Assembly: GCA_022661535.1 (NCBI GenBank)
Contig: JAKULF010000004.1
Location: 3,844,001-3,908,000, forward strand
DNA length: 64,000 bases
From: Eutypa lata
Taxonomy: Eukaryota > Ascomycota > Sordariomycetes > Xylariales > Diatrypaceae
Reading direction: 5' to 3'
Shown here: positions 5,335-52,019 of the stretch, piece after piece
Numbering within the stretch: the first letter of the stretch is position 1
How the letters are laid out: each line of letters begins with the position of its first letter
Notes under the pieces: generated by a model
The model's database searches: none
Seen by the model: only the letters and a program-made list of their open reading frames with translations
What the model was told of the DNA's origin: nothing
Position numbers and translations under genes: made by a program

Positions 5335-8300
5335 AGTTATAAGCTTAAAAAACTTATACGAAATCTTTTATTATATATTTTATTATTTATAATTTATTTT
5401 ATTATTAAATATTTTATAAATTAATTTATTATATTTTTTATTATAAAATAAAATAAAAAATTCTTAATATATTTAATAAAATTTAATACTTTTCGAAATT
5501 TACAATTATTTTTTTATTAAAAATATCGTCGTTTATATTTATTAACGATTATTTATACTTTATTTAAATTATAATTAATATATAATTAATAATTTATTTT
5601 CTTTATTTAATTAAAATTTAATTATATATTTTATTAAATATATATTATTAAATTATTATTATTTTTATATTTAAATATATTTAAAATTTATAATATTAAA
5701 AATAAAACATTTTAAAATTAATTATATAAATAATAAAATAACGATATAAATATTTTTCGTTTTATTTTTTAACGTTATTTAAATAATAATTAAATTAATA
5801 ATATTATAATAAATTTATTAAATAATAATATAAATAAATAATAAAAATATAATTTAAAAAATTATTTTATAACGAAATTATAATTTTTTAAACTTTTTAA
5901 TAAATAAAATTTTTTTTATTTAATTTATATTTTTTTATAACTTTTAATTAAATTTTTTTTTAATAATAACGATTTTAAAAATTAAAATTATATTTTTATT
6001 AAACTTATTAATTATTTTTTATTATTTAATTTTAATAATATATTATTTATATTTTTATTTTACGATTTTAATAAAGTTAATTTATTTAATTTAAAAATTT
6101 TTATATTTAAATTTACGTTAAAATTTATATTTAAATTTATATTAAAATTTATATTTAAATTTATTTTTAATTTTATATTTTTTATTATTTTAAATTTAAA
6201 AACGATATTTAATTTAATATTTAATATTTTATTTATTATTTATAAACGTATATTTTTATTTAATTTATTTAAATTTTATTACGTTAATAAAAACTTAATA
6301 ATAAAGTTAAAAAAAATATATAAACTTTAATTAATTATTATATTTAAATTTTATAATAATAATTTTAATTAAAATAAAAATTAATTTATTAAATAATATA
6401 ATAAAATTTATATTTTTTTTAAAATAAATTAACTTTAAACGAAATATAATAAATTATTTTTATATTTAAAAATATAATTATTTTTTTTAAATAAAAACGA
6501 AATTAAAAAACTTAAAAAAATTAACGAATTAATTAAATTTAAAAAGTATAAAAAAAAAAATAAAATATTAAATTATATTTAATATAAATTAAAAAAAGAT
6601 TTTAAAATTAAAATTAATAATAATAAATCTTTAAATATATTATTCGTTATTTAAAAATATTTAATTAAATATTATTAATTTAAAAATAATATTATTTTAA
6701 TAACGAAATATATTATAATTATTTTAATTATTAAATTTTATTAAATTAAATAAAACTTATATTATTTTAACTTTATACTTTATTAATAAACTTTTTTTTA
6801 CATTTAATTTAAATTATTTTATTTCTTTTATTATTTTTTATTAATTTTATAATATTAATTTTTAAAAAAATAAAATTATTAAAATTATTAAAATAATAAT
6901 AACGTTTAAAAAAACTTTATAATTTATTTTATAAAAAAATAAAATTTATATATTAAAAATAATAACGATTTATAAATCGGATTTCTTTACGTTTAATAAT
7001 TTAATAAATTATAAAACGATAAAAATAAACGAAAAACATTTAATAAACTTTAATATAATTATTATAAAATCGTTAAATGTAAAATTATTAATTATTTATT
7101 TAATAATTATTTTTAAAAATACTTAAAAAAAGCATTATTATATTAACGAAATAATAAAACTTAATAATTTAAAAAATAAAAAATAAATAATAATAATATT
7201 TTAATAATTTTTATTAAATTAATATATAAAAATAACGAAGTTAATAACGATATTAAATTCGTTATTATTAATATATTTTTAATAATAAAAAACGATATTA
7301 TTAAGTTATTATAAGTTATATTATAATTAAGTATTTTATTTCGTTTTTTTAAAAATATTTTATTTAATATTTATTTTATAATTATTTAAAAGCGATTTAA
7401 TAAATAATTTATTATAAATTTATTTATTAATTTTATTATTAATTTTATTATATTAATTTTTAAACTTAAATTAAACGATATATTAAACGACTTTAATATA
7501 AAATAACGATTAATAAAATTAAAATTTTTATTTTTATTTAAAAATAAAATAATAAAGTTAATAAAAAAGTTATAAAAAATATTAATTTTAAATAATAATT
7601 ATAATTAAATAAATTATTATAAACGAAAATTATTTAATAATTTTCGATTATATAAAAGATTATAAATATATAATATTAAAATATAAAAATATTATATTTT
7701 TTAACGTTTTAATTAATAATAAAATAAAATATATTAATATTTAAAATATAATTTATTATTTAAAGTTAAAAGTAAACTTTATTTTAATTATTTAATTTAT
7801 TAAGAAAAAAGCGAAATTTTTATTTCGTTAAAACATCGTTTATAACGTTAAAAAAATATTTTCTTAATTATAATTAAATTAATAAACTTATACGTAATTA
7901 ATTAATTTAATAATATAATTAATATAATTAATTTTAATATAATTTTTTATTTTTACTTTATTATAAACTTTAATTTATTAATTTAATATAAATAATTAAA
8001 GTATTTTAATAAATAAAATATTTATAAATTAATAATTATATTAAAAAACATTAAGTTTTTAAAATAATAATATTTATATAATAATTACGTTAAAAGTTAT
8101 TATTAAAAAAAACCTTATAAAAATAAATTAAAAAAAAGCATTTATAATTTAAAATTATTATATTTAAATAAAGTTAATATATTATAAAATATTATTAATT
8201 ATAATAAGTTTATTAATTAATTAATTATAATTTATAATAAATTTTAAATAAATTAAATTATTTTAATTAAATAATTTAAAAATTAATTATAAGCTTTTAA

Positions 8301-11300
8301 AGATTTTTTAATTTAATAAAAAAAACTTAAACGACGTTATTATATAATAATTATTAATAAATTAAGCTTTTATAATAACGTAAAGTTTTAAAACTTTTAT
8401 TAATAAAAATATATAAATATTTATTATTTCGTTATTAAATAATATAAATAAAACGACGTTTTTAAAAATATTATTAATTATTTAAAAAATTATATTAAAT
8501 TAATTATAAAAACGATTATTAAAAATAATATATCGGTTTATTATTAATTTATTATTATAAAATTAATATATTATTTTAAAAATAAAAGTTTATATTTAAC
8601 TTTTAAAATTATTTTTTATAAAGTATAATATAAAAATAAATTTAATTTTTATTATTTAATAAAAATAAAAGTAATTAATTATTATAAATTTAATAAAAAA
8701 ATAAATATTTTTAAATTAATTAATATATTTTATAAAATATTAAGTTATAATAATAATAATATAATAAATTATATCGTTTTTTAATTAAATAATAACATTA
8801 TTATTAATATTAATAACGTTATTTTTAAAAAAAACATTTAATTTTTTTATAATTATAATATTATAATTATAAAAAATAAAAATTAAATTTATTTAAATTT
8901 AAATTAACGTTAAAATAACGATAAATTAATAACGTTATTAAATCATTTATTATTTAAAACTTATTCGCTTTACGATTAATTTTAATTAAAAAACTTAAAG
9001 GTAAATAAAAGCGTAAAAAATATAAACGATTAAGTTTTAAATTATTATTAATAATTATTAACGAATATATCGTAAATCTTTTATTTAATATTTACTTTAT
9101 AATTATTTAAAAACAATTTAACGAATAAATCGTTATAAATTTATTCGTTAAAAATAATTTAATTATATTTAATAACTTAATTTATAATAATAAATATATT
9201 AAAAAAATTATAACTTATAAAGAAAATTTATTATTTAAAATATTTTACGATTATAATCTTTATTTACGTATTAATTACATTTAAATAAATCGATATTAAT
9301 TAAAAATTAATTTTAAATTTTATTTAATTATAATAATATTAAAAATTATATTAATAATTATAATTATAAAAAATAAATATTAATTTTTAATAAATAATAA
9401 CATTTAAATAATTTATAATTTATTTATTAATTAAAAACCTTTATTTAAAAAATAAATTTATAAATTAAAAAATTTTTTTAATAATAAAATTATTCGTTAT
9501 AAAATACAATAAATTATATATAATTTTAAATAAATTAAAAAATTAAATTATATAAATATTTTTATTTTAATTATTAAATTTATAAATTATAAAATTATTT
9601 TTATTTTTATTATAATATTAAATTTAAAATTAAAATAAATAAATATTAAAATAACGTTTTTTTATAAATTAATTATAAAGAAAATTTACGTTAAATAATT
9701 ACTTAAATTTAATAATAATATAAACAAAGTATATAAATTAAATAAAGTATTTTACGGCTTAAAATAAATATTATAAATATAATATTATATATTAATTACA
9801 TTTTTTAAAAGTTAAAGCTTTAATTTATTAAAATTTAATATAAAAGTATTTTTTTAAAAATATATTTATATAATAATTTACGTAAATAAATATTTAATAA
9901 TTAAATTTAATAAAAAGAATTATTAAATTAAAAAAAGCTTTATTTAATAAATTTAAAATATTTAATTTAAGTTTTTATAATTATTTTTTAAATATAAATA
10001 TTACTTATAATCGTATTAATAAAATAATTTATTTTAATTAAAAAATTTACTTTAAAAGAATTATTAAAAAATTAAATTAATAAAATATATATTTAAATAT
10101 TATATTAATAATAATTAATAAATTTAATAAATTTTTTAATAATTATAAAACTTTAATAATAAACGTTAAATAATATATTAAAGTTATAAATTATTTAATA
10201 TACGTTATAATAAATATTTATTTAAATATTATTTATATCGTTTTTTATTTAAATCGTTATATAAAATTTTTTATTATAATTTATTTTAATATTATTAAAC
10301 GAATATTATATTATTTTAAAAATACGTTTAATTTTAAGTTTATTTATTAAAATAATTTATATAATTTAATTAATTAAATTGATTTTAATTAAATTAATTA
10401 TACGTAATTTCGTTAATTAATCGCCGGTTATATTTTTAACATTAATAATAATATTATTAATTAATTTTAAAAAAAGCAATTTATAATAATATTATTTTTT
10501 TATAAAATTAAATATATAAAATAAATATAAATTATAAAAAAAGTTATTTAATTATATTAATTATTTAATAAACTTAACGTTATTAACGATTAAATAATTA
10601 TTATAATAATTTATAATAATAATTAAAATATATTTATTTTAATTAAAAATTTATAATTTTACGTTTATATAAAATATATAAAAATATATTATTACTTTAT
10701 TTAAAAAAATAAGTTAATAATAAAGTTAATTTTTAATATATATATATTTTAAATTAAATTATAAATAATTTAACGAAATTATTATTAAAAAATAAATTTA
10801 TTAATTTTAAAAAAGCTTTAAATATTTTATTTTAAAATAAATAAAAAAAAGAAAAATAAAACTTATAAAGGCATTTTATTATTAAAATATTTCTTTTTTT
10901 TATATTTATATTATTATTTATATTAATACTTTTTTTTTATATTTTTTTTATATTATATATTATATTAACTTTATAATAATATTAATTTTTTAAGATATTT
11001 TTTAATATATTTATTATTATTTTAAAAAACATTAAAGCTTAATTTTATTTTATAAAATATATCTTTTATTTTTAAATAAAAATAAAAAAAACTAAGCTTT
11101 ATATAATATACGTTTAATTTTTTTTTTAAATTCTTTTTTTTAAATTATTTAAATTACGTTATAATAACATTTATAATATTACTTATAACATTTAATTTAT
11201 TTTTATTAAATTTTAATATATTAAATATTAATTTAAAAAACTTTTTATAATAATTTTATAACTTAATAATTAACGATAAAAGTTTATACGTTTATTTTAA

Positions 11301-11953
11301 AATTATATTTTTTTATAATAAATAAAATAAAGTTAATTAATAATATTATATATTAAATATTATCGCTTATAATATTTTCGAAAACTTTATTAATTTTTTA
11401 TTTAAATATAATAAAAAAACTTAAATAAATTTATTTAATATATTAAATAAATCTTTAATTAAAAATTAATAAAAAATAAAAAAATAATATATATTTATTA
11501 TAATTATTATAAGCGGCTTTTATAAGTTATATAAAAATAAACGAATTTTAATTTAAAATTATAATTTTATATTTTACGTTATTAAAATTAAACGTTAAAA
11601 AAGCGTATTATTTAAAAAATAACGCTTTTTCGTTAAATATTTATAAAATAAACGTTATATATTAAAAGTTAAAATTTAATATAATATTAATAATTTAAAT
11701 AATAAAAAAAATAAATGTTTAATATTTTTATTATATAAAGTATAAAAATAATTTAATTTAAAAGATTTTAATTATTAAAGCTTAAAAAACCTTTAATTTT
11801 AAAATTATATTAAACTTAAATTTTAAAACTTTAATAAAAGAATTAAAGTAACGATAACTTTAAACCGATTATATTATAACTATTAATATAATTCGAATAA
11901 AAATATTAAAATATAATAGTTAATAAATTTAAATAACTAAAACATTTTATATT

Positions 11954-12063
11954 TATAGTTATATAATGCGTAAAATGTCCTTTATTTATACATAAAGATA
12001 ACCTATTTATTTAAATAATAATAACATATAATATAACCTTATAACCTATGTTTATATTTAACA
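11954..12063 (+). repeat. 3' LTR of the copia element
   Basis: This is the partner of 5225-5334. It begins TATAG (original TG mutated to TA) and ends TTTAACA, keeping the canonical CA end. The five bases after it (12064-12068, ATATC) differ from the 5' flank ACACC only by two C-to-T changes. Confidence 0.8.
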
Positions 12064-20338: not shown

Positions 20339-23300
20339 ATGGCGAAGGCATTGTATATTTTACTCTTCGGTCTATGTGGCTGGGGTGCTGCTCAAGAAGG
20401 TTCGGTTGCCATTCCCTCTGCTAATCATCCACGCGGTCGTTGTCGTCATCCAGCTTCTTCCCCTACACTCATTTCAAATACATCTGCTTCGTCTACACTC
20501 GTTTCAAACACAACTGGTCTTCCTGAGAATGCCTTTAATACTTCGATGTCACTTTCTGCTTCCGCCACAACTGTCACCTCATCTACCGGTTATACACTAC
20601 AAATTACCTCTCTGGCGAATACAAGCGCTGCTGAGACTTCCATTTCGACACTTAGTCAATACTCGGATTCGTTCCAACCTAATACCTTCACCGTTACATC
20701 ATCTATTAAGGACGTCGAGCTAAATTCAACCGCTTACAAAACGACTCTGTCTACGAGTATTGAGGTGTCTAGCAGTACAGCACCAAGCCGGTCTTTGGGA
20801 AGCTCCACCACATATTTGAGCACTCAGTCGCAGTCAACTTCAACCAGCTTACTGCAGTCAACGAGTACTCTAGCCAGCAGCCAGTCGTTGCTGGAATCAG
20901 TTACCAGCTCCAGTTCGACTGGGTCTTCTTCAGGGCAGATATCAGCCAGTGCTTCTATCACCTCCAGCTCTTCTCTAGATACAGATTCTGTACCGCAAAC
21001 TACTGCCACCCCCTCAGATTCTAGCCGTGTTACATTTTCTACTACCTTATCTTCATCACTGTCATCGTTATCATCATCGTCCTTGGTAGCATCTATACCT
21101 TTGACGACATCGACAACTAATAGTCTTCCAGCCGTGACGGTTGCCGCTGACGGAAGCGGCCAATATACGGCCATAGGCGCTGCTATTGCCGCCGCCCAGT
21201 CTAGTGGAATCCCCACTGTTACCGTTAAAGCAGGCACCTATACCGAGGTTATCACTATCCAAGCTACTGCAGCTGTCACTGTCGTGGGCGAGACGAGTGC
21301 GGCGCAAAGGCGGTCAAACGGTTACTCTGGAAACTTGGTAACTGTAACGAACGGCGGATCAGCTTCTGCTCCTTTGACCTTCTCGACAAGTGCATCTAAA
21401 GGAGTCGCTTGGAAGAATATCAATTTCGCCAACACTAACGCGGCTTCCACGTCTGGCGTGGCTTTCCTTCGTGGTTCTAAAAACGCTTTCTACGGTTGTG
21501 CGTTCACCGCCGCTGGCACTGTTGGATTTACAGGTAGTTACGCTTCGGGTATCATCGCCAACTCCTACATCGAGGCAGTCGATAAGCCATTGTCTTCTTA
21601 TGCATCGTTGTACATTTATGGCACAACCATTACCGTTACCAAGAACAACGCAATTTTGGTATACAACAAAGGAGCCCTTTCTGGTACAACACAGTATAAC
21701 TCCACGGTAGTATTCGATACTTGTGACATAGTCCAGAAGGACGGTACCTCGAACACCAATGTTTATCTTGCTGCCGCCAACGGAGTCGGATCAGTAGTGT
21801 TGTACCGTGATTCGACCCTCGCAGGTTTTATCGCGGGGACTGGCGTGTATGTGGATGCGACAACCCAAGACAGCCGGAACAGCTATTTCGAATTTGGCAC
21901 AACTGGTGCAGGTAGCTATTCGAAGAAGGCAGCTACTCGAGCGTCGTATGTAACACTGGTTACAGATGTCGCCAAGCTCGCTCCCTACGATATCACCAAC
22001 TTCTTCTCGTCGGCGTATCCAAGTGTTGCCGTTGCGACTGTTGATTGGATCGACTCGAATGTGTTCAACGCGATACGAGCGGCTAATGCGGCGGACTCTG
22101 GTTCTGCTACTACCACTAGCTCTGCCATCTTAACGACCTCATCTACGTCGTCCTTGGTGTCCACCTCGACTACATCGTCTGCGTCGACCATATCGTCTGC
22201 ATCGACTATATCGTCTGTATCGACTACATCGTCTGTAACATCTGTATCGACTGCATCGACTACATCTTCTACCTCAATCAGTTCAACCACGTCGTGCTTG
22301 CCCTCGTCCGTGCCTACCACGGCCTTGGTCGTCGGACCCGTAGAATCTACTTGCGCAACGTACAATACCATCGCTGGTGCGGTCGCCGCACTTCCCGCAG
22401 ATTCGACGACGCAGTACATATACATCCTAGCGGGCACTTGGAGTGAAAAGCTCACGATAGTCCGCACTGGCGCCACAGTCTTCCGCGGCGAGACTGACAA
22501 TGCGCTGTCCTCGTCGGCCAACAAGGTGACGATCAAAAACTCCGCCTCACTGCTCTCCAGCGCCGGTAGCTCTTCCAGCACTGCGACCTTCTTGGCTAAT
22601 AAATACGAGGCAAAACTCGTCTCATTCTATAATATCAATATCGAAAACAGTGCCACGCCAGCAACTAATACTATTGCCCTCGCGGTATATGCGAAGGGTA
22701 CTAAGGTTAGCTTCTATGGGTGTAACCTTTCCTCATCTCAGGGTACTCTATACCTTGACTATGGCAACTTCTTCTTTAGCGGCGGAACCATCCAAGGGAC
22801 GACGGATATCGTCTGGGGTCAAGGGGCAGGCTACTTTTATAACTCAGTTATCATTTCTAAAGGTACCACAACCGGTCAGACCATCGCTGCCCATAAGTAT
22901 CAGTCTTCCTATGGCGGATCTCAATTCGTCTTCGACACCTGTGCCATTGTGCCAGCCGATACTTCCGTACCGCAGAAGAGCACCTACTTAGGTCGGGACT
23001 ACAGTACAAATTCCAAGGTTGCTTTCATTAACTCGTATATGGACTCGCACATTGCACCTGCAGGATGGAACGTCGCTTCTAAATCTACATTCACGGGCAC
23101 TTTTGTGGAGGCAAACAATACGGGTCCCGGTGCGGATACCTCGTCTCGTACATCTGGCCAAGTCTTGACGGATACTTCAGCTTACAGCATCAAGAATGTG
23201 CTGGGAGATGATAGCTGGCTTGACTCTGCCGCAATAGCCCCTTTCTCTGGCTGGCCCCAATCCGTGTATACGCAGAGCACCACTACATCCTCCATGGTGT

Positions 23301-26300: not shown

Positions 26301-28269
26301 GGCTCTGGGACTTCAGGGCGCGCGTCGTTCGCAACTCAACTCACGGCGGACAGCGCGACTCAATTTCAGCTGGCCAATTTTTTCTCGGCAACCGCATGGA
26401 TAAACATGACCTATGTCTCTGCCACCCCCTTTATTGCCTCGAACGTCGTCATTCCGTCAACCACACTCTCGGCATCCACGCCGGTTTCGACATCAACATC
26501 TTCCGTCGTCTCATCATCTACAGTGACTGTCTTTACTACAGTAGTTTCAACACTTAAACAGACAACATCTACAACTGTTACACCAGCTGATGTGACTGTC
26601 ACTGCAACGGCCACTTCGACCGTAGATATCGGTGCTACCATCACTCCTCAGCCGACAACAAAAACAACGGTCGTCAAGACTTCCGTCACTTCAGTTTCCA
26701 CCATCACTGAACCCTATGAAACAGTTACCCAAAAGTCTACCGTTGTTGTTAATATTGGGACGACCGAAACCCCCGAGTCCGTTACTCGAACCGTCTCATC
26801 CACTGTAAGTACTCTCAGGTGATTTTTACCCATCTAGCATATTTTAGGAGCACAATTCTTCGATAATAGAAGTTTGTGCTGCCAGAACATGATTGGTGGA
26901 TCTAGAATAATCGATACATTGTCTAGAAAGGGAGAGAGCTAACTTCGAGGGGTGTAGGTTACTGAGACTGCGACTTCCATAGTTTCAACAAATGCCAAGG
27001 CTACCACCATCAAGACTTCAACGACGGCCACTACGACGAAGACCAGCACCCAGGTTCTGACAACGACCACGACTATCAGCAATATGGTGGTGTCCACCAA
27101 GACTTCTACCGCCAAGGATACTACCATCACGAATACCATAAGCAAGACCACCGGTGTTGGCGGTGTCACCACCGTAACAGCGAAAGCGACAACGACCTAT
27201 GTTACAATTTTCACTACTTCCATAAAGACAATCAAGAGCACCAAGTGAGTTCTCAGGATCCTTTACTCCCTTGCTTAACCTGTATAAGGATTATTGTATC
27301 TGGCAATATCATATCACAAGACTCAGACTCCTTACTCCCAAAACGTACTAAGAATAATATATACTGACTCCAACCGTCCTGTAGAACATTGTCCTGCATT
27401 CCAGCCAATACTAACAAGGCGAGGGGCCTACCAACACCTATTCCGACCATCGAGTTATCCCCCCGTGATGTTGATGCCCTACAAGCTCGCGCCAACACAG
27501 TGAAAACGGTGACAGTTACCGCGTCAGTTATCACAACTGACGTAAAAACCGCCACGATCACCAATCCAAGAATCACGAGTACGACTGGGGTCATCGTCAC
27601 CAAGACGACTGGAAAAGTGACTGTAAGTACTCCTGGACTGGTTTTGACTCTACCTACCTAGCTATTTCGTTTTGGCGCCACATTTCTTTGCTAGTTAAGA
27701 GTGACTTAGAGCTCCTGGGTCACTGGTAGATTATCTGGGAGGACAACAGAAATAGCTGACCCCGAGTGTTTTAGACCCTTAAACCTGTCACTGTTGTCGA
27801 AACCTCAATTTCGGTTACTAATCGCCTGGTGACAACCACCGTTCCCGGCGTTACAGCAACCACGACGGCCATCACTACTATCACGACCGGCAAGGCGACG
27901 ACCTTGAAAGCCAGCACGATAACCGTCCCTGCGGTAGCCACAGCCACCGTCACCGTCAAATCGACGACTACGATCCCAGCAGACGTGGTGACGAGCTCCT
28001 ATGTCACGACCCGAACCGTGACGACGGTCCTACCCGGGGGCACGGTCACGATCACGCGCAACCAGGATACGACGGCGACAACGACCGTAACAGCTGCAGG
28101 CAAAACGGTCACGAAATCGACGACGGTCATGTCGACGTTGAAGCCTACAAGCACTGTTACCGGGCAGAGTACCGTTACCAAGACTACCACGAAGAAGGTG
28201 TCTACTACCATTACCAGCGTTTCCACGAGGACGGCAAAGAATGCTGGAGTATGTACCACCGTGGTCTAG
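20339..28269 (+). CDS. Giant secreted protein with five tandem pectin-methylesterase-like (CE8) domains
   Basis: There are five exons: 20339-25788, 25841-26804, 26958-27244, 27385-27622 and 27775-28269, in phase throughout, giving about 2477 aa. A signal peptide (MAKALYILLFGLCGWGAA) is followed by about 240 Ser/Thr-rich residues and five beta-helix pectinesterase-like repeats at roughly 265-587, 660-977, 1011-1327, 1351-1680 and 1700-2013. A Thr/Val-rich tail of about 460 residues follows. CE8 enzymes de-esterify pectin. Catalytic motifs are complete in repeats 3 (QDTL, VDFVWG, LGRPW) and 4 (QDTL, IDFIWG, LGRPY), and near-complete in 5 (QDAL, VDMIWG, LGRPW). Repeat 2 has QGTL, losing the acid/base Asp, but keeps TDIVWG and LGRDY. 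Repeat 1 lacks all three motifs. Fungal pectinesterases usually have one domain of about 330 aa. The low-complexity flanks suggest a heavily O-glycosylated wall-associated protein. No GPI signal is evident. Confidence 0.85.
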
Positions 28270-41982: not shown

Positions 41983-42743
41983 ACCAACCATATGCTTGAG
42001 ATTAATACTTGTCATGACGTTACATTGCATGGCGTTAGGGGTGGGTTTTCCGGAAGCGTACATAGTTTTGGGTTGCACGCCTCCACATATCATTAGAGTT
42101 GAGAACAAACAAACAAACAGCACGATTATGATTTTAGTACGTGAACTTCAATAAATCGTGGTGTATTTTAAGTACGTGTCTTAAAGCGCATGTTATATAA
42201 TAAGAAAGCATGCCCTCTACTTAAGCTGCACATAGTAGTCTTACGAATTGGGAACTCTGCGCGCTTCGTTATATTTTGATTACTTTATATCAACTTGGGC
42301 CTCTTGTGTCGGTCTCGTCTCCGGCGCAGGCTGCATGGTTTAAAACCCCTTCTTCTGCCACCTTCCTTTCTCAGAAGTAGCTACTGACGCGTAACGAGAT
42401 TTTTAAAGGTTAACTAACAGTCCCGTTATGAACAGGAAGCTCTAGCAAGGCTCTGAGTGTAGTTATACAATGATTTCAGGGGTTTTATATGACCCACAGC
42501 CAAGTAATACCTAGATTATATCTGCCGCGAACAACAATCTTCAACCTGTATCTGATATTTACACTCGCAAGGACGAGTCGTTGTTGACGTCTCCACAAAG
42601 TCTTACGGCCCTCTAGTATAATTGTGGCTGGCTTGATAGGTAGAACTTCTTCCCTTCTGTCTGCGTACAACAGTAATACACTCATCTAAACATTACGGTT
42701 CATTAACATCATGACACTTATCGTGGTTAAAAGGCACGTAGGT
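41983..42743. other. Intergenic spacer with a degraded LTR-like copy
   Basis: No gene was found. The segment 42582-42716 resembles the solo LTR at 18480-18627 and is listed separately. The rest should include the csm3 3' region. Confidence 0.5.
42582..42716 (+). repeat. Degraded relative of the solo LTR family
   Basis: The last 58 bases (42659-42716, TCTGCGTACAACAGTAAT ... CATGACA) align without gaps to 18570-18627 at roughly two-thirds identity. Most differences are C/T or G/A, as expected of RIP. Resemblance in the 5' half is weak, and no target duplication is evident. Confidence 0.4.
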
Positions 42744-43535
42744 TCATCCTTCGAAGACCACCTGTTCCAGTGTCGTCACCCGCTCGCTCGATGTGACCCT
42801 CTGTATCCGTTGTCGGCCCGGATGACGCTCTAACCTCTCGCTCTCGTGTATTGCGGCGCTCACCGTGTACATGTTGACCCGGTTGTGGTTGCCCCGGATG
42901 CTGCTTTGCGCGCTGCCTCCTCTCCCCATCAGCACCAGGACGGCCAGCACGAGCATAGCCGAGGACGGGCTCAGCGCGAACAGGGCCACCTCGAGCTTGA
43001 CGTAGATGTGAATGATGCTGCTGGTGGGGTCCTGCTGAGCCGCGAGGGATGGATCCAGGGCTAGGCATCGCAGTTTGTTGATCACTACTGAGGCAAAAAG
43101 CTTAAGGAGAAGCTTCATATAGTCCTAGTTTCTATTAGTGCTGAAAGATGGCGCCAAGCGAGGGTGGTGGTCAAGCCTATATTACTATACCTTAAAAACG
43201 CACTGAGTAAGTACTATAGCGAGAACGACCGGGCTGAAGTGGAAGAGGAAGCTAATCAATGTGTTGGTCTCGCGTATGATCTCCTTCTCCCGTTCCAATT
43301 CCATTTCAGAAACACCCGGATCCCCTTGGACATCATCCATGTGCGGATCGTGCCCAAGCCGAGAAGGCTCGAGGTCTAGAGTAGTAGCCCTAGATAGCTG
43401 CTTTCTGGAGTGCCGAGAGTCCTCCTCAACTTCGAGGTCTAGAGTATATTCAAAGTCGTACACAGGTCGCAGGCTCCCGATGCTTCTCCTGGTCCTTCTT
43501 CTATCCGGTAGTTCTGTAGTATGTTTTGGGGCCAT
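42744..43535 (-). CDS. Small membrane protein with a G-x-x-N nonapeptide (237 aa)
   Basis: The proposed exons are 43191-43535 and 42744-43112, joined across a 78-base intron with a good branch site (ACTAATA). The start is the ATG at 43535 (MAPKHTTELPD). The N-terminal 90 residues are charged. Hydrophobic helices lie at about 98-115 (FHFSPVVLAIVLTQCVF) and 153-177 (LEVALFALSPSSAMLVLAVLV). Directly after helix 2 comes GGSAQSSIR-GNHNRVNMY, one clear and one weak copy of the nonapeptide seen in the next three genes, then a basic tail. I recognise no family. The shared motif and position suggest it belongs to the same functional island, possibly as a membrane-acting partner. The single motif copy could be chance. 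Confidence 0.5.
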
Positions 43536-44237
43536 CTTGAATTTTTCGTGGGCGATAGGCTGTTATGTCAATGTGTCTGCTGGACGTAATAAATGTCTCG
43601 AATTCCTAAGTCTAACGTCACTGGAGGGTGTGATGGTTTCCGAAATGTACCTTCAGAGAATGGCAGTACCTGAACTAGGGAACCACGAGGAGGTAAAACG
43701 AAAGGGCCTCCGGAGTGACTAAAGAATATAAGTATTTGAAAGATTTTGAAATTGTCAGTAGTCGGTGATAATGGTCCGGAGACAGGCTGAAGTTAAATAT
43801 ATCGGTGGGCAGTGTGCGACGTGGAGAAGGTGCAGAATTTGGGGGCGTAATGATAGGTTTGCCTAGTTCACTCAAAGAGAGGGGAGTTTTGAAGAGCTGG
43901 CATGAAGCCCGGCATTTTGTTTGTGGCAAAATTGCAAGAGCAGCTGTCTTGCAGATTCTATTACTTAATATAGGTAATTGGTGCCTGATAGGTTCGTTTG
44001 ATGTTACATCTCCTAGGGAATACCCTTTACAGGACTCGGTATGCTTACCTATCTAAGCCTCATAAAGAAGAGGCTGTGAATGCTCGATTCGGTGTGCGTC
44101 GCTCTGAGAATAGAAATTTTATATACTCACCTTCTCATTGTAATAACGCCAATCAAGCTTAATCAAGCTTACCTAGATACAAACAAAACCCAGTAGACAT
44201 TTACATACGAAAAAACTAAATAACTAAAGACACATAG
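43536..44237. other. Intergenic spacer within the accessory island
   Basis: Overlapping short open stretches exist on both strands, but none starts with ATG in a convincing context or resembles a family. A perfect tandem copy AATCAAGCTT lies at about 44152-44171. Confidence 0.45.
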
Positions 44238-45701
44238 CTAGCCTTTACCTTTCCACAGAAAAGCCTCCGCCATCTTTGTTAGATCTATTCCTTCCGTGCT
44301 GGCCTGCGTAGTGATATTACCGGACCCGTTCGTATCACTCCAATGTCTATCGCCAAGCTGAGCCGTCTCATTGGTATCGCCAATTATGCAACTCCAGTTT
44401 GACCATCCCGCTTGTCTCATCTTATTTCTATTACCATGAATTCTAGACTCGTTTCCCTCGATGCTGGTGGTGGGCAAGCTGTCCCCCCCATTATGATCAT
44501 TGGTCTGGGTTGTCCTCTCCCTGTGCTTGCGAATCGCCCTTTCCGCCAGTTCAGACACGTTGTCTGCTACTTGTTTATATATAGGGCTGTCTTCGCTCTC
44601 GAACTTGCAGATTTTACTGTGGTCGGCATCTAGTGGTATCTGTTTCTCCCTTGTACCAGGAAGTCCGAGTGTTGCCGATTCCTTGTCCACAATCTGATAG
44701 TACCGTTAGAACTGCTAGTTCGTCTGCTTCCGATCCAGATAATGCTCTACTTACAATGCCACACTGACCTAAGGGTCTGGTCTCGTAGAAGCTGATGATA
44801 GAAAGATTTTCCAAGAATTGGCGGAAATCATCGCCCATGTTATTAGATATGATTGAACCGGGTTTCAGAGATTCCATGAACGTGTTTCTCTGGTTCCCAG
44901 CCACATATCTTGTTATCGTGGCTATGATATTGCCCAAATTTGCATGGTGTCCACCTCTATGAGGCGTGCCGAGGAATGCTACTCCGAATGTAGAGCTAAA
45001 AACGTCTTTGTAAGTACTGTCGCTATTCGCGTGGACGATAGCCTGATAGAAAGTTAGCCCATCGGAAAAGTCAAGTAGAAACACTGTAGGGGGTTATTTA
45101 TACGTTCAAGGGTTCCCAGGAAACTTACCCTCTTTACTACTAGCCCGCCCAAACTGTGGCAGATAAATATCAACGGCCGAGTAGGGTCTTTCTGTTTTGT
45201 GTAAGCGCGTAGCTTAAAGGTAATTGAGAACTGGGACTAGTACATACTATACGCTTATACGCTAACAAATTGAGAAGGTTCTCTGCCTGCTCCCGTACCC
45301 CCGAGGTTGCTGTTCCGAATGCGATGTTTGAGTTATACCCAAAGAGAAGCACTCGTGCTTCCGGAATCCGATGTGGGAGGAAATCTCGGAGCCATAGTTT
45401 TCCATCTTCTTTCCACGTGTTCTCGGCATGGGCATCTTTGTTGATAGGATTTAGCCCGTGTACGGCTACAATACTTCAAGATTGACGAATGGGTCAGTAA
45501 GAATTACTTGGAATAAAAAGGTATTGCTCAGGGAGGTGCCTTACTCAATACTAGGCTCAGATGGCTCAACCAATACATCTAAAAATGTCTGGGAGCTTGG
45601 CTTCTACCGAACTGCTTGTTAGCGCCACCGATTTTCAATAGTATTCAATTGAAGGAGTATACACGTACGACATATTTCTTATGCCAGGGCCAAGAGCGCA
45701 T
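44238..45701 (-). CDS. SesB-type alpha/beta hydrolase with C-terminal amyloid-like repeats (374 aa)
   Basis: There are six exons: 45669-45701, 45545-45603, 45248-45473, 45129-45191, 44755-45042 and 44238-44693, in phase throughout. Start MRSWPWHKKYV, then IVAVHGLNPINKDAHAENTW, the nucleophile elbow RPLIFICHSLGGLVVKR, the block FGVAFLGTPHRGGHHANLG, and an Asp/His pair in IIVDKESATLGLP and LDADHSKICKF. These define the SesB hydrolase often fused to or encoded beside fungal NLR receptors. After a linker, the last 65 residues hold five in-register nonapeptides: GNRNKMRQA, GWSNWSCII, GDTNETAQL, GDRHWSDTN, GSGNITTQA. Known SesB proteins with C-terminal amyloid motifs are activated by templated assembly from a partner NLR. 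No NLR lies in this window. The three catalytic residues appear intact. Confidence 0.85.
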
Positions 45702-46804
45702 TTTGAACAGATTTATTCTATCATATGTGTTGAGCTTAACGATAGTCTAAATTGATGTTGGATATAGGTAGATATATAAAGCAAATATATTTCATGAGAT
45801 TTCTACCAGTTACTGCACGCTGTAGCACCACCGCACAATATCCAATGGACAACTCCAAAGACGTTTGTCTGTCAGAGCTTACATTTATAGCCCCATTACC
45901 CCAAAATTATTGCCTATAATAAGACTTACCTACCTTCAAGGGCGACTTAAAACATGGTTGCGGCTAGCGTCTTATCGTCATTCTTCGCACATGGCTTAGA
46001 ATATGATGTCTAACTCGATTAACACAGAATTGTTCGGCTTTATCCGGCAGCAAGATATAACTCGGATAGCCCAGATAGTTAAAGGTCGGTGAGAAAGGTA
46101 TACCGGCTCAGCTCATACGTCACTGTACTATAAGGTAGCATCGGATTCTCGCTTAGAGAAATCGACTCATTAGATCAAAACCCAGATGGGGTTTCCGACG
46201 GTAGCTACCGGACGGGATCACCGATCGCCTGCAGCTAGCTATGCTGTGAACCCAGCATCAAATATCGTCCTTAACTCCAATCATCTGGGCGGTATATTTT
46301 TACTTAGTGTAAGCAAGGCTCTTGGTGATGTAGGGAAATTCTTTGCGATCATATATATCAAGCCTTACCCATGAAAATAGCCTTGATGACTGCCTAGAGT
46401 CCCTTACTAGAGGGCAGCAGGCAGCAGGCAGGAGAATATGCAGACTTAGGTTGGTAGGGTTACTTTGGTGGCTATCATCTCAACAGACGCAAGGTACGAT
46501 GGTTCGCGCCCCTTCTTCTTTCTTGGGCGAACTATCATTCTTTCATGAATTAGATACAAAAGGCAGTGGCGGGACCCCCCGCAAACCCTCGCTACCGTTC
46601 ATTCACCTAGGATCTGTCACCTCAACTGTACTTTCCATAGATCGTATAGCTTGCGCTATTGCTCTCAAAATTTGGTTTACATATCCTCTATTGTCTAGAA
46701 TTCCGCTCAACACACGGCATATCTCGACGCATCTACCACCAACTACCACCGTCTTAAAAGGTAGTATTCAGAAGAATCCACCGAAGCAGTCTTGTAAGCA
46801 ACAT
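45702..46804. other. Intergenic spacer upstream of two divergent island genes
   Basis: Shared 5' region of the SesB gene and the gene at 46805. The frame of the latter stays open back to 46343 and contains another ATG at 46499, but the extra segment has no resemblance to anything and a composition typical of untranslated leader. A CAGGCAG mini-repeat lies near 46420. Confidence 0.5.
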
Positions 46805-47287
46805 ATGTCTGACCAGGGGACTATCACCATAGGTTCTAAAACTTCGTCTACCAATTATTTCAATATCAAGACAGCTGCTATGCCTAGCAACGTGCACACC
46901 CTGCAGGATAAATCCGACCCGGATATTGAAAACCAGCTCATAGCAGACGACAACAATACAGTGGCCGGCACCACTGATCGCAGACGAAAGACCAACATCC
47001 ACCACGAAACAAAAGGTGTGACTCTTGCTGATGATCAGCAGCAGGGGTGGATCAACAAGATATCTTCCATCCTGAAGGCACTGAATCCATTTAGCAACTA
47101 CATCCTCAACGTAGGAGAGAAAAACAATAACAAGCAGGCTGGGGCGGCGAACCTTGCCGATATCCGTGGAAATGGCAACGTCAATGATCAGAAGGCAGAC
47201 AAAAGTGCCACATTTGTGCTCGGGGGGATCCTGTTAGGCTTCTTTTATCTCTCAGCGAAGTTATTGGGTGCGTTATTTAGTCATTAA
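46805..47287 (+). CDS. Small protein with nonapeptide repeats and C-terminal membrane helix (160 aa)
   Basis: A single exon; I chose the ATG at 46805 (MSDQGTITIGSKTSSTNYFN). A longer start at 46499 is possible. The N-terminal 85 residues are polar. An amphipathic segment WINKISSILKALNPF follows. Residues 104-130 are three contiguous nonapeptides GEKNNNKQA, GAANLADIR and GNGNVNDQK, matching the pattern in the SesB protein. A hydrophobic helix (TFVLGGILLGFFYLSAKLLGAL) ends the protein, so it looks tail-anchored. No family was recognised. By analogy with fungal amyloid systems it could be a membrane effector recruited through the repeats. That is inference: no HeLo or HELL domain is visible. Confidence 0.65.
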   Translation: MSDQGTITIGSKTSSTNYFNIKTAAMPSNVHTLQDKSDPDIENQLIADDNNTVAGTTDRRRKTNIHHETKGVTLADDQQQGWINKISSILKALNPFSNYILNVGEKNNNKQAGAANLADIRGNGNVNDQKADKSATFVLGGILLGFFYLSAKLLGALFSH

Positions 47288-47733
47288 TGCTTAAAATAAC
47301 TTGACTATGAAGTTGATAGCCATCTTTCACTATGTATTAATGTTGGATTAACAAGGAATAACTGTTGTGTTGGGTCTAGGTAGCAGGTGGGTTTATACTA
47401 TGTGATAGAACCAACCTATAGCCTTGCCTTACCCCTAAATGCTCTTTATAGATGCTTTATTATTGTTACGATATTTTAATTTACTCGAAGGTAATCACCT
47501 TTCATGTACTCTTTACTTAATTTCAGACTGAATAACCTTGTTCATATTTTCTGCCATTAGGGGCATATATATCATCAAGACCGAATGTTACGAGTAAATT
47601 CTAAGGGAATTTAAATAGCTCCTATCGTACAAAAGGATAATATGTGATGTTTGAGGTCGCAATGATGTTCAGCTGGTAATTATCTCATGTAGCCATAACA
47701 ATATCTTAATATTCCTAATAGTAGCAGCTGTAC
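47288..47733. other. Convergent intergenic spacer
   Basis: This A+T-rich stretch lies between the 3' ends of two nonapeptide genes. No coding signal was found. Confidence 0.5.
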
Positions 47734-48323
47734 CTATTTCTTTACAGTAAAGAGAAAGTTAAAAGGGTTAATCTTCAATATCTTATCCGCTGCTCCCTTT
47801 TTCCAGCTCAGATCATTTCCAGCGAGCTGGATTGCGGTTTTATCGTAGCGCCGATCCACCCAGTCGCATGTGTTCCCGGCCCCCGTGATCTCAACGCTGT
47901 TGTCGTTGCCCTTAGTGACACTCTTGTTGCGGTTCCCGGCATGGCCGACAGCGCTGCGGTCCAAGGTGACGATCCCATTGTTCTTGTTTCCGTACTGCTT
48001 TGTTCTGTTATCGTTCCCGAAGACCTTGATCCGATTGCCCACCCCCCTCATGGTCGCCAAGTTGGTCCCAAATCTGACCATCAGCTGGAACACTGGCTTG
48101 AGGCAGTTGTTGAAGAACCAGTTCTGGCTGCAGCGTGGATTAGCTAGGGAACGACTTGATTGCATTTTCATTCTCGTTTTTTAAGAAGAGAAAAAGAGAG
48201 CAAAAAGAGGTCACGTTAAACATACTTAGCTTGATAAACGCGGTCTGTGTGTTCTTTCGTGACGTTGGTAATGCGGTCTTTGCTTCTGGCTTCTATGTAA
48301 CTATCGTCTTCCTGAAAAATCAT
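47734..48323 (-). CDS. Small nonapeptide-repeat protein (163 aa)
   Basis: The proposed exons are 48226-48323 and 47734-48127. The start at the ATG at 48323 (MIFQEDDSYIEARSKD) is tentative. The core, residues 61-123, is seven contiguous nonapeptides without gaps: GVGNRIKVF, GNDNRTKQY, GNKNNGIVT, LDRSAVGHA, GNRNKSVTK, GNDNSVEIT, GAGNTCDWV. Gly is at position 1 and Asn at position 4 in six of seven. The C-terminus KILKINPFNFLF echoes SILKALNPF in the protein at 46805. Such strict short-period G/N repeats suggest a stacked beta-solenoid or amyloid-like fold. There is no membrane helix and no family was recognised. It shares strand and repeat type with the SesB gene 2 kb away. Confidence 0.65.
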
Positions 48324-49531
48324 CTCGTATCGGACCTGAGAGCAAAAGCTGATATTTATGAATAATGATTGGTGTGGAGGGGCTGAGTAAGTATTGGGAA
48401 GTGACTTCAAACTTGTGGAATGTGAACTAGATCTTTTGAGTTAAGACCGCTTATACTAAAACATCACATTGGACGTTGCAGAGTTAAGTCTCAAGAAGCT
48501 CAACTCTTGCAATAGGTGCGGGGCATACAGAGATACTTATATTAAAGGGGAAACCGTCCAAGGTTACACTCAGATGAAGATAAAAACAGAGCCTGTCCAT
48601 CTTTGTTATGTCATATCAGACCCTGATCTCTCAATTTGGAAAATACAGGAACCCTTAAGTCCTAAGTGTCGGTGAATCACAAAAAGGCAATCCGAGCCTC
48701 CTCAACCGGGGCATCCGTATCATGCTACATAACTCGCAGAAATTCGGTCCTGCCGTGTAAGGCAACCGATTGCAACCAATTAGTCAAGGAATCAAGCTTG
48801 GCGCATCTGCACCTTCATGCTCACCGAAGTAATGGCTTTGAAGGCCGGCATTCACGGCTAGGTTTGCCTGCCCTCCTTTCCTTACCCTCTGTTCATTAAC
48901 ACCCCACCTTTTCGGTTATTCTAGGCTTTTAATGTCATCACCCTCGAAAGCGCACCCAAGGGTTTAGTCAGGCCGTACGACGTCACATCTCCGCGGCGTT
49001 GAGACCCCCCTTCATTAAAAAGAATTGCCACGGTGAATTAGTTATGAATCCCCACCACTTTCATTCTTGGGGTTGGCAGACTAATTTAACATAGAATACT
49101 TAAACCAAGCTGGAATGGCAATGACAAGCTAGGTTATAAGAAGGTATTGATACAGGGCCAGAACTGATCGGTCAGACAAAGTGCCATCCATATAAGGAGA
49201 GAGCCTAGATCTCACAGCAGATGGATATAACATAACCTGGAAACACTCTCCTGAACCCTTTACGTTCATTATGGTAGTGTAATCAGCTCTGAAGTAGAAT
49301 GTATATATGTTACGATATATTTCATATGGTTCATTGATGCGGTAATATGGGACGAATGTAAAGGTATTGTATGGAGAAGGGGCGAAGGTATTCGTAAAAC
49401 TTCAAGAAAAGATCCTCAAGACAACGTTAGATGCAAGTTTGTTCAGCTGGCATTGAGATCAGGATATCCCACCTAGCTGGAAGTCCGTCTTTGCTCCATC
49501 ACCACGATGCTTCGTCTCGAGGGACAATTCC
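48324..49531. other. Intergenic spacer
   Basis: No gene was supported. Composition is mixed, and short open stretches lack ATG starts and family resemblance. It may contain the lost 5' end of the pseudogene that follows. Confidence 0.45.
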
Positions 49532-51647
49532 GTGCTGTGTAGGGAACACTCCGAGCGGCAAAAGAATCCCCAAAGTTTACGAAATCCGTATATCAGAGAC
49601 CTTCTTGGAAAGGGGGGATTTTTCGAGAAAAAGAATGCCGGAGACCCAAACCCCGCGACCATTCATAGAGATCTACCGATTGAAACGGATGAGGTCAAAC
49701 CAAACCAAGAAACATCTACAGAAGGATCTACGTCGGATGATGACATCGAGAGCATATTTTCTATCAATACCTTGTCGACAGTTCCATCATCTGCCAACCC
49801 CGTTTACACTAGTGGAATCAAGGAGGTTGCACAGGCGCTTTTGAGCCAAGTGGAGCTGAAGAATCTGTACAGCACAGCAATATTGAACTTGAAGCTGCGA
49901 AAGAGTCGTGCTCACATTCGTGGTTGTTGGAAAGAGTATAGCAGGAAACTTGCTGCCGAAGTGTCTAACGAGCTCGAACAGAAAGCGTGCAAATTCGTGG
50001 AGGAGTTGACTGGTCGATTGGCAGACGAGATAAGGGGGTATATTGCCGGATTTGAAGAAGTGAACCGGCCTGCTCCTACCGAATCTAACAAGAAAGATCT
50101 GGAAGGTTGGCTTTCAAATATTGACAGTGCCTATGGACATGGGCCATCAAAAGACGGCCCCTTTCCTTCAACATCAAGAGAACTCGATCAGAGTCTAACT
50201 AAGGTCGGACGATGAGGATTTCGATCCAGGCATAGAAGAGACCACGAATTTCCCAAGAATCGACCAGGTCAGAGACTCTCTCTTGTCATCTCAAGCCTTT
50301 AAATCACATCTTAGAACGCTGCGGGACTGGCTGAAGGTTGATGATAAATCACCCATACAAGCAGGCGTTTCGGGTCCCAATGCTTCTGATACCCAGAACC
50401 TTAGCAGCTCGCATCCAGATAAGGTAAGGTCACGAGACCCCTCACCAAGTCCAAGCCAACCTGCTACAAGCCCCCTAGATGTTCCTAGCACATCACACGA
50501 AGAGGCTCCAGGAATATCTTCACCCATAGAAACGGACGACGATGCCCCGAAGTTTTCGCAAGCTCCGCTGATTACGGACGAAGGGAAAGGGTTTGAAAGT
50601 CACCCAGTTACTACCTCGACACACCAAGAAGTTCCCCAGGAAGTCCTCCTGAAGCCGAGACGTGCTGCACCGACCTCTTGTCCCCGACAAACGAGTGCTC
50701 GCGATTTGTTCTCGGGACCTTTGGACTTCTGGGGCGTATCCTTTTTCTTTTATGATATTATCGAGCTGTTCGTTCCTAGTATAGCACCAGGGTATAGACG
50801 AGTACGATGGAGTTGCGTGAGATCCCCCTCTAGGCTAATGATATTGGAATTTACTAACAAGACCCTAGTCGTGAATACAATGCTACCGGGGGGATTTCCC
50901 AGAAGATGACCTGGGTGCGTTGAGCCAATTGAAGACCGACCTATCATATGGGAGCCTACCTACTCTAAGCGATGATATCTCTTTGGGTTGTTCTTAAACT
51001 GGCAGTGGGCACGCAACGTGGCAGCCGACCTCGGGTGGATTAAGTACGCCCCAGAGAGCACATCTTTCACCTGGCGCCTCGCAGAATACAACACAACACA
51101 ACCATATTCCTGGTTCTGGTTCACGCAATGAGAGATCTACACCTGTTGATGCAGGAGCCCATTCGATCAACGTCGACGGCTTGACTGGAACTACTTATAT
51201 TCCCAAATACTTTTGAGGTGAGTTGTTCTTGCTACCTCAGATGCTCCGGCACTAGCCAGACTCTAGTTTTCTGTCAATCCTAAGAACCTACATGGAACCG
51301 GCATCCACAAGAAGCCAGACGAGTACCCCCCTGAGCAAGAGCTAGATGAAAAAAGGTATCATTACTTGCGTCCTAAGATACTGATGCCGGTCAATGTCTT
51401 TTCCACTACCTCCATCGCGCCAGGTGGAATACGTGGAATGAGCACACTGATGATATATGGCTGAAGAGGCTTCCGAAAAAAGCTCAGCAAGAGTATTTTG
51501 GCTGCTCAAAGGCAAACAGGGAGTGGTTCAGATCCGGATCTGGTGTTCGGTTGGGGTGTGCATATTTTAGACGGACCAAACCATGCGGTTCTATGGCTAC
51601 TGCTCGCAATTCTGATCATTATCTCCTTGATAATCTCAATTGCTTGA
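49532..51647 (+). pseudogene. Decayed gene of a large fungal membrane-protein family
   Basis: Three coding blocks lie in the right order but in different frames. The first (49532-50215) has DDDIESIFSINTLSTVPSS and LRDLL/VELKNLY-type helices but no ATG. The second (from about 50205, shifted by one base near 50206) has DEDFDPGIEETTNFPRID, a Pro/Ser-rich stretch and PGYRRVRWSC. The third (about 51295-51647) has KPDEYPPEQELDEKRYHYL, HTDDIWLKRLPKKAQQEYFG, then after another shift near 51527 DLVFGWGVHILDGPNH and a membrane helix. This order matches orphan proteins common in Sordariomycetes whose C-terminal GWGxHxxxGPNH plus helix is diagnostic. Function is unknown. Some apparent breaks could be unrecognised introns, but at least two look like single-base shifts. 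Confidence 0.6.
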
Positions 51648-52019
51648 TAGTTGGAGCTGCACATACACAGGAACAAGGGTTGGCAGTTATCTCGTTGAGA
51701 TTATGGTATGTCTGATGGTAGCGATCTATTATAAGTTGAATGACAAGTGAAGTACCTAGGCTGGGGCAGTGTCTTCGTTAGCGGATTTGATAGTTACTAC
51801 AATGCTATAATGCCCCGCTATATAGAGGGTAAATGCCCCGCATGCCACTAGAAGTCAACCCCAATGACGGAACGAGTGCCACCTTTTACGTAGAACAATT
51901 TCAACAGACAACACAACTGCACACCTACTTACGTATTAACCACGACCAAATTATCTGTCGGACCTGGCTTGCCATTTATTCTGCTTAGCCTGGAGTGAAA
52001 TAAGAAGCAGTTAGCCAAT
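51648..52019. promoter_or_regulatory. SKI2 promoter region
   Basis: A spacer of about 370 bases with no coding signal that should hold the SKI2 promoter and leader. GTAAATGCCCCGC-like repeats at about 51808 and 51828 are a short local duplication. Confidence 0.4.

Follow-up and report, generated by a model that had tools for sequence, protein, structure and literature searches.

Introduction

Fungal amyloid-signalling motifs have been assigned in print to four to five families (PMC12261475, PMC9815663), and on the effector side they are described at the C-terminus of the protein (PMC12261475). In the account of Daskalov et al. (2012; PMC3321046), the sigma motif is a threefold tandem of units eight to nine residues long, GxGxQFNxx (unit A) and GGTQNINT (unit B), and occurs in sesA, sesB and NOD-like receptor (NLR) proteins; the same source reports a sigma-bearing protein that does not adjoin an NLR gene. 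PP is described there as a pseudo-palindrome of 17/18 residues carried by SesB homologues, HeLo proteins and NLRs, the PP/RHIM core is given as G-phi-Q-phi-G (PMC7885112), and PF17046 (Ses_B) serves as the PP profile (PMC8086366). A SesB-type lipase is present in the published sigma and PP loci (PMC3321046, PMC7885112, PMC5485727). Here we analyse a 64-kb window of the Eutypa lata genome (C5:3844001-3908000; genome of 54.5 Mb in 29 contigs; positions below are those of the window), in which three genes lying within 4.1 kb (44238-48323) carry tandem arrays of the nine-residue unit G-x-x-N-x(5), 16 units in total. They are called here A (minus strand), coding for a SesB-like alpha/beta hydrolase, B (plus), with a predicted membrane segment, and C (minus), coding for a small protein. 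Our best reading of these sequences is that the array is a candidate motif of a new amyloid-signalling-like kind, with a pattern that relates it to PP and sigma.

The locus resembles the PP systems (CgHELLP/CgSBP/CgPNT1, and HELLP/PNT1 of Podospora) in combining a SesB-type lipase (SBP) as effector, a membrane-directed partner and a motif rich in Gly, Asn and Gln. However, PP is a pseudo-palindrome with G-phi-Q-phi-G, whereas the array has 3 to 7 tandem units, with no Gly at position 6 ahead of the core Gln, and neither an NLR nor a PF17046 match was found for it in the window. With the sigma locus of Nectria haematococca (sesA/sesB/het-eN; PF17106) it shares a three-gene cluster that includes sesB, the tandem repetition of a Gly-initial unit eight to nine residues long, and a composition rich in Gly, Asn and Gln; it differs in the sequence of the unit (neither GxGxQFNxx nor GGTQNINT fits any of the 16 units by inspection), in the three units and NLR carrier of sigma, and in the lack of a hidden Markov model match. 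The likeness to HRAM and HET-s would lie in Gly turns and Asn ladders within a repeated beta structure, which is only presumed for the array, and in the C-terminal position on the effector, but these motifs have two copies of a 21-residue pseudo-repeat and a HeLo effector, while the period here is 9 and no such Pfam match was obtained. Short units rich in Gly and Asn or Asp are also found in RTX beta rolls, DUF3060 and curlin repeats, with a nine-residue period in RTX. The RTX unit follows the consensus GGxGxDxUx, with Asp at position 6; this Asp occurs in 0/16 units of the array, which gives no RTX match in Pfam, stays below every Pfam cut-off and stands in the context of an intracellular-type fungal hydrolase.

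A nonapeptide array shared by three adjacent genes

The 16 nonapeptides are in register, with Gly at position 1 in 14 of them and Asn at position 4 also in 14; position 8 is Q in 6 units, I in 4, V in 2, T in 2, and H and W in 1 each. The array of A (44301-44462, minus strand) lies near the C-terminus and has 6 units (IEGNESRIH GNRNKMRQA GWSNWSCII GDTNETAQL GDRHWSDTN GSGNITTQA), 4 of which are strict GxxN units. B carries 3 units, all strict (47114-47194, plus strand; GEKNNNKQA GAANLADIR GNGNVNDQK), directly ahead of its C-terminal membrane segment, and the array of C, located mid-protein (47857-48045, minus strand), comprises 7 units (GVGNRIKVF GNDNRTKQY GNKNNGIVT LDRSAVGHA GNRNKSVTK GNDNSVEIT GAGNTCDWV), of which 6 are strict and the fourth is degenerate. 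An initial annotation of the stretch had counted five, three and seven units in these genes, a count that we reproduce for B and correct to 4/6 and 6/7 strict units for A and C; it had also extended the repeat to a fourth neighbouring gene, D (42744-43535), where we find a single GxxN, and the repeat is retained for A, B and C. All four of the Q-x-G unit junctions that it pointed out (RQAG, AQLG, KQAG and KQYG) were found.

Composition shuffles equalled the observed number of in-phase GxxN in 0/20,000 cases for A (in its first splice model), 25/20,000 for B and 0/20,000 for C, in a test that is after the fact, as the pattern came from the earlier annotation of the same sequences. Across the six frames of the window, only A, B and C contain stretches of three in-phase units in a row (4 matches), and a weak GxxN pair at 26792 (minus strand) is followed by no further unit. 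The tail of A aligns with C without gaps over 57 residues (local score 75, equalled in 0/5000 shuffles), and its alignment with B was equalled in 1/5000. When the tail of A was searched against its own genome at E 10, two places were found, itself and C (E 0.62), 3.3 kb apart; the array of C found itself and the tail of A only (E 1.08), each of these searches having scored only two candidates from a loose first pass. The reciprocal E-values are not significant by themselves; by our own arithmetic, a random second match would fall less than 5 kb away in 54.5 Mb about 2 times in 10,000. B had no match beyond itself in the genome at E 1. Among 5.77 billion proteins, a set whose fungal coverage is uncertain, the tail of A had no match at E 10, itself included, and B and C had one near-identical protein each at E 1. 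Searches of open-licence PubMed Central papers found no report of a GxxN nonapeptide array. The repeat is confirmed as genuine in A, B and C, which have no other evident relationship.

Comparison of the codons used in different units gave, for the Gly of position 1, identities of 0.76, 0.77 and 0.28 at bases 1, 2 and 3, with GGG, GGA, GGC and GGT all occurring, and for the Asn of position 4, identities of 0.88, 0.88 and 0.54. None of the 7 rows returned by Tandem Repeats Finder (score 30) between 42000 and 48500 overlaps the arrays. Scrambled synonymous third positions, together with the lack of a DNA tandem repeat over the arrays, indicate that constraint acts on the protein; by the codon pattern between units, these are old or convergent, the frames appear to be translated, and Gly and Asn matter.

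The array-bearing genes

Gene A (minus strand; exons 45701-45669, 45603-45545, 45473-45248, 45191-45129, 45042-44755 and 44693-44238) codes for 374 amino acids in the final splice model. This predicted six-exon model has introns of 65, 71, 56, 86 and 61 nt, all GT..AG, and an open frame, and the array and the final portion of the hydrolase region are encoded by the same exon. A first model with a 35-nt intron had made A look like a pseudogene, an interpretation that was dropped when enumeration of splice pairs gave a 56-nt GTATGT...CAG intron and a clean frame; the first model, which has 7 extra residues upstream of the tail, was the one used in the shuffles, the Pfam scan, the paralogue search, the search of 5.77 billion proteins and one Protein Data Bank (PDB) sequence search. 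The Pfam matches, obtained with that model, are PGAP1 (24.5 bits, cut-off 24.3) and DUF676 (21.8, cut-off 20.3), both barely above threshold, and the nucleophile motif CHSLGG is present. The previous assignment of one gene as a SesB hydrolase holds as far as an alpha/beta hydrolase of PGAP1/DUF676 type is concerned, the name SesB not being one that comes from Pfam. SesB-type paralogues of A are numerous, with 43 matching places in the genome at E <=0.001 (its own exons counted), down to 1.7e-33. Three consecutive units are absent from the 26 paralogue loci that were fetched (L005-L018 and L020-L031, some overlapping), and the array is therefore no general feature of such hydrolases in this genome.

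B (46805-47287, plus strand) is a single-exon open frame of 160 amino acids, with a predicted C-terminal membrane segment at about 47213-47269 (19-residue hydropathy 1.79), and is identical at 156/160 positions to P0002, a protein from another public assembly. The open frame upstream of B (46334-46804) is apparently shifted by an indel in that assembly while the frame of B is preserved, in agreement with a start of B at the ATG of 46805. C (exons 48323-48226 and 48127-47734, minus strand) codes for 163 amino acids and looks soluble, with a 19-residue hydropathy of 0.77 and no membrane segment; it is identical at 140/143 positions to P0001, found in other public assemblies, and both changes within its array relative to P0001 fall in the already degenerate unit 4. 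A segment with ILK-x-NPF is common to B (47063-47107, plus strand; SSILKALNPFSNYIL) and the C-terminus of C (47749-47787, minus strand; DKILKINPFNFLF), where it possibly forms a membrane-binding helix.

Comparison with PP motifs of the same genome

Searched over the genome, PF17046 gave two weak places, 1.6 kb apart and on opposite strands, with E 0.09 and 0.86, below the cut-off. As a control we used the locus with these two places, L105 (G000:C9:2304000-2309500), which was thus retrieved through the PP profile and contains two genes on opposite strands whose PP motifs match PF17046 with E 0.0015 and 0.0042, below the curated cut-off. The effector gene has a PF17111 domain (E 1.2e-13; Pfam name PigL_N), which we take to be a HeLo-like effector domain, and ends in SVTFGRNNSGMQHGVNNGSMDGWTFGR; the second gene starts with MPDLAEISFGYGNRGFQMGQNNGSI, followed by regions read as NB-ARC and TPR. 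Since the C-terminus of the effector and the NLR-like N-terminus both carry PP motifs, we read L105 as a probable pair of effector and receptor of the PP type.

The 13-residue core G..N...Q.G..N, which A, B and C contain once each, is present in identical form in both PP motifs of L105. Among 700,892 residues of six-frame translation (the window plus 105 loci, overlaps counted repeatedly and matches in the eight loci overlapping the window left out), this core is found at 5 distinct sites, one in each of the three arrays and one in each motif of L105, and shuffled PP motifs show it in 176/400,000 and 348/400,000 cases. Because L105 was itself retrieved by its match to PP and the pattern was settled once this locus had been seen, these figures describe a match between array and PP, and not a frequency in the genome. 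The view that a nine-residue tandem is unlike the named motif families was too strong, as the units of sigma are likewise arranged in tandem and eight to nine residues long, and the genome's own PP motifs contain two GxxN at a distance of nine residues. Comparison with HRAM, PP and sigma profiles, which the initial annotation proposed as a check, gave no Pfam amyloid-motif match in the genes of the window. The array thus combines a PP-like spacing with a sigma-like tandem build, yet neither profile test places it among the members of those families.

Proposed assembly and evidence against it

We propose, with a probability of roughly 0.35, that A, B and C belong to a new fungal amyloid-signalling family, defined by a multivalent array whose units are half motifs of PP/RHIM-like type (G-x-x-N...Q) and without a linked NLR, in which lipase A, membrane platform B and soluble nucleator C would form a signalosome. 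The broader claim that the three proteins share one homotypic assembly motif by which lipase-like A is recruited to the membrane stands, in our opinion, at even odds. In the proposed assembly, the units (position 8 being mostly Q, I or V) would form short beta strands alternating with G-x-x-N turns and stacked by Asn/Gln ladders. B would be held in the membrane by its C-terminal helix and display its array beside it, the small multi-unit array protein C would nucleate or bridge, and A, as a lipase-like enzyme, would be recruited via its C-terminal array, a step modelled on the PP-motif lipase CgSBP, proposed to be brought to the membrane by CgHELLP. By analogy with PP and sigma loci, templated polymerisation of the arrays, triggered by C or by a putative receptor, would concentrate A at the membrane and lead to lipid attack and perhaps cell killing. 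If this is true, an array of variable length that is divided among a lipase, a protein anchored in the membrane and a small partner, none of them next to a receptor, would imply that such motifs can grow by addition of units and that linkage of the receptor to the motif-bearing genes is dispensable. The spacing common to the array and the PP motifs of this genome offers a simple route connecting the tandem arrangement of sigma with the PP/RHIM type.

The earlier identification of the locus as an amyloid-signalling module is supported in part, being favoured by the hydrolase with a C-terminal array and the neighbours that share it, and disfavoured by the missing NLR and the lack of a Pfam amyloid-motif match. 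A number of results weigh against a shared assembly motif. NACHT and NB-ARC have no match in the window, and the nearest one among the matches listed on the contig is some 0.4 Mb off. The array is also absent from the NLR stretches examined, which covered 52/58 NACHT matches and 22/23 NB-ARC matches (for 30 loci including both 1.5-kb flanks, for the others only the 1.5 kb upstream), both lists being lower bounds since the NLR of L105 is in neither of them. Locus L063 has a single GxxN pair, a chance one, on the strand opposite to its NACHT match, and the near-miss GNKNSVSQHG in the NLR-upstream stretch of L085 lies inside a region read as a SesB-type domain and is without the second N. A receptor may be encoded elsewhere, or may have its motif split by an intron. 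With regard to the motif itself, PF17046 has no match in the genes of the window, and PF17106 (NACHT_sigma) has none in the window, its single match, on a different contig, being sub-threshold (E 0.6). When 6138 open reading frames were searched with filters off, A, B and C were not among the best 17 matches of a PP profile made from two sequences, nor were the PP motifs among the best 17 of an array profile made from three. The G-phi-Q-phi-G core is absent from A (KMRQAG), B (NNKQAG) and C (RTKQYG), in which position 6 is not Gly and Gln lacks two hydrophobic flanks, and the criterion G..N...Q.G..N was set once L105 had been seen. B and C align poorly, 116/5000 shuffles being equally good. 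Relative to P0001 and P0002, changes are found at 3/90 array positions and 4/213 others and are not rarer in the arrays; in one of them, between B and P0002, the Asn of unit 3 is lost in the other assembly. Finally, the AlphaFold2 model of C made with three sequences (predicted local distance difference test, pLDDT, 34.8) places strands in the repeat region at intervals of about nine residues, and that of the repeat only, made with four sequences (pLDDT 54.9), has no assigned strands; the two models disagree and are too poor to use.

Alternative explanations

The arrays might instead be soluble beta-solenoid or beta-roll binding domains of RTX/DUF3060-like type, with two 9-residue units per coil, which would keep the three proteins together as a non-polymerising complex. 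RTX beta rolls are described as made of nine-residue repeats (PMC6891781). The best Pfam match of C is DUF3060 (E 0.011), with a trace of Curlin_rpt (E 1.2), and Curlin, RTX and DUF3060 were discarded as identity of the array, as no match is above its cut-off. The very-low-confidence model of C, with its strands at nine-residue intervals, gave no Foldseek match at E <=0.001; among its 24 weak matches, with E of 1.9 or higher, are an RTX module (AlgE6R1), the functional amyloid FapC and several proteins known as beta helices. The complete lack of Asp at position 6, the absence of strands in the repeat-only model and the three units of B, which in our judgement seem not enough to form a closed roll that is stable, make a beta roll somewhat unlikely. 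Sequence searches in NCBIfam and PADLOC had no match, PHROGs gave a chance-level match to B only (E 0.12), and the PDB search returned no useful match. An array that derives from sigma by far divergence at the SesB end, its partner receptor lost or unlinked, would agree with the three tandem units of sigma, shared by sesA, sesB and NLR, and with the sigma protein reported away from an NLR gene (PMC3321046), but PF17106 finds nothing in the window, and Asn or Gln stand at +3 and often +7 from Gly in the array, versus +4 and +6 in sigma unit A, so that we regard this origin as unlikely.

The lack of an NLR in the window, the lower G+C content between about 42 and 52 kb and the unit Asn lost from the B protein of the other assembly would also suit a decaying accessory island, that is, a former signalling cluster whose receptor is gone and whose genes are drifting. 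Given that the three frames are intact, that the introns of A are GT..AG and that P0001 and P0002 show no disruption where they match, we hold such decay to be quite improbable. As to a chance or compositional likeness of Gly- and Asn-rich stretches in three orphan genes, the signal of B is the weakest of the three in the shuffles, its alignment with C is poor and the pattern was chosen after the sequences had been seen; against this, no shuffle of A or C reached the observed count, these two arrays are each other's only further matches in the genome, 3.3 kb apart, and third codon positions are scrambled under Gly and Asn, all of which leaves chance with very little probability.

Gene D and other features of the window

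Gene D was dropped as a fourth member of the group, having one GxxN, which we judge ordinary for its length, and an ambiguous intron. Its two frames have membrane-type segments (19-residue hydropathy 2.06 and 2.30), so the membrane helices attributed to two genes are seen in B and in the frames of D, and not in C; just one array-bearing gene has a helix. The region 42000-52000, which contains A, B, C, D and an orphan region (49457-50909), has a lower G+C content and raised TpA/ApT, and lies between two gene blocks richer in G+C. Neither of the two adjoining open frames that make up the orphan region matches Pfam at E 1, and the first (49457-50215) finds nothing but itself in the genome at E 0.001. 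At 5400-12000 there is a block of about 6 kb with roughly 6% G+C (measured over 6001-12000) and dense AT-only tandem repeats, which resembles a heavily mutated repeat or a centromere-like block. An 18-bp tandem repeat of 5.8 copies (22166-22270) is located within an open frame of 1820 codons whose repeated segments, assigned by eye, appear pectinesterase-like.

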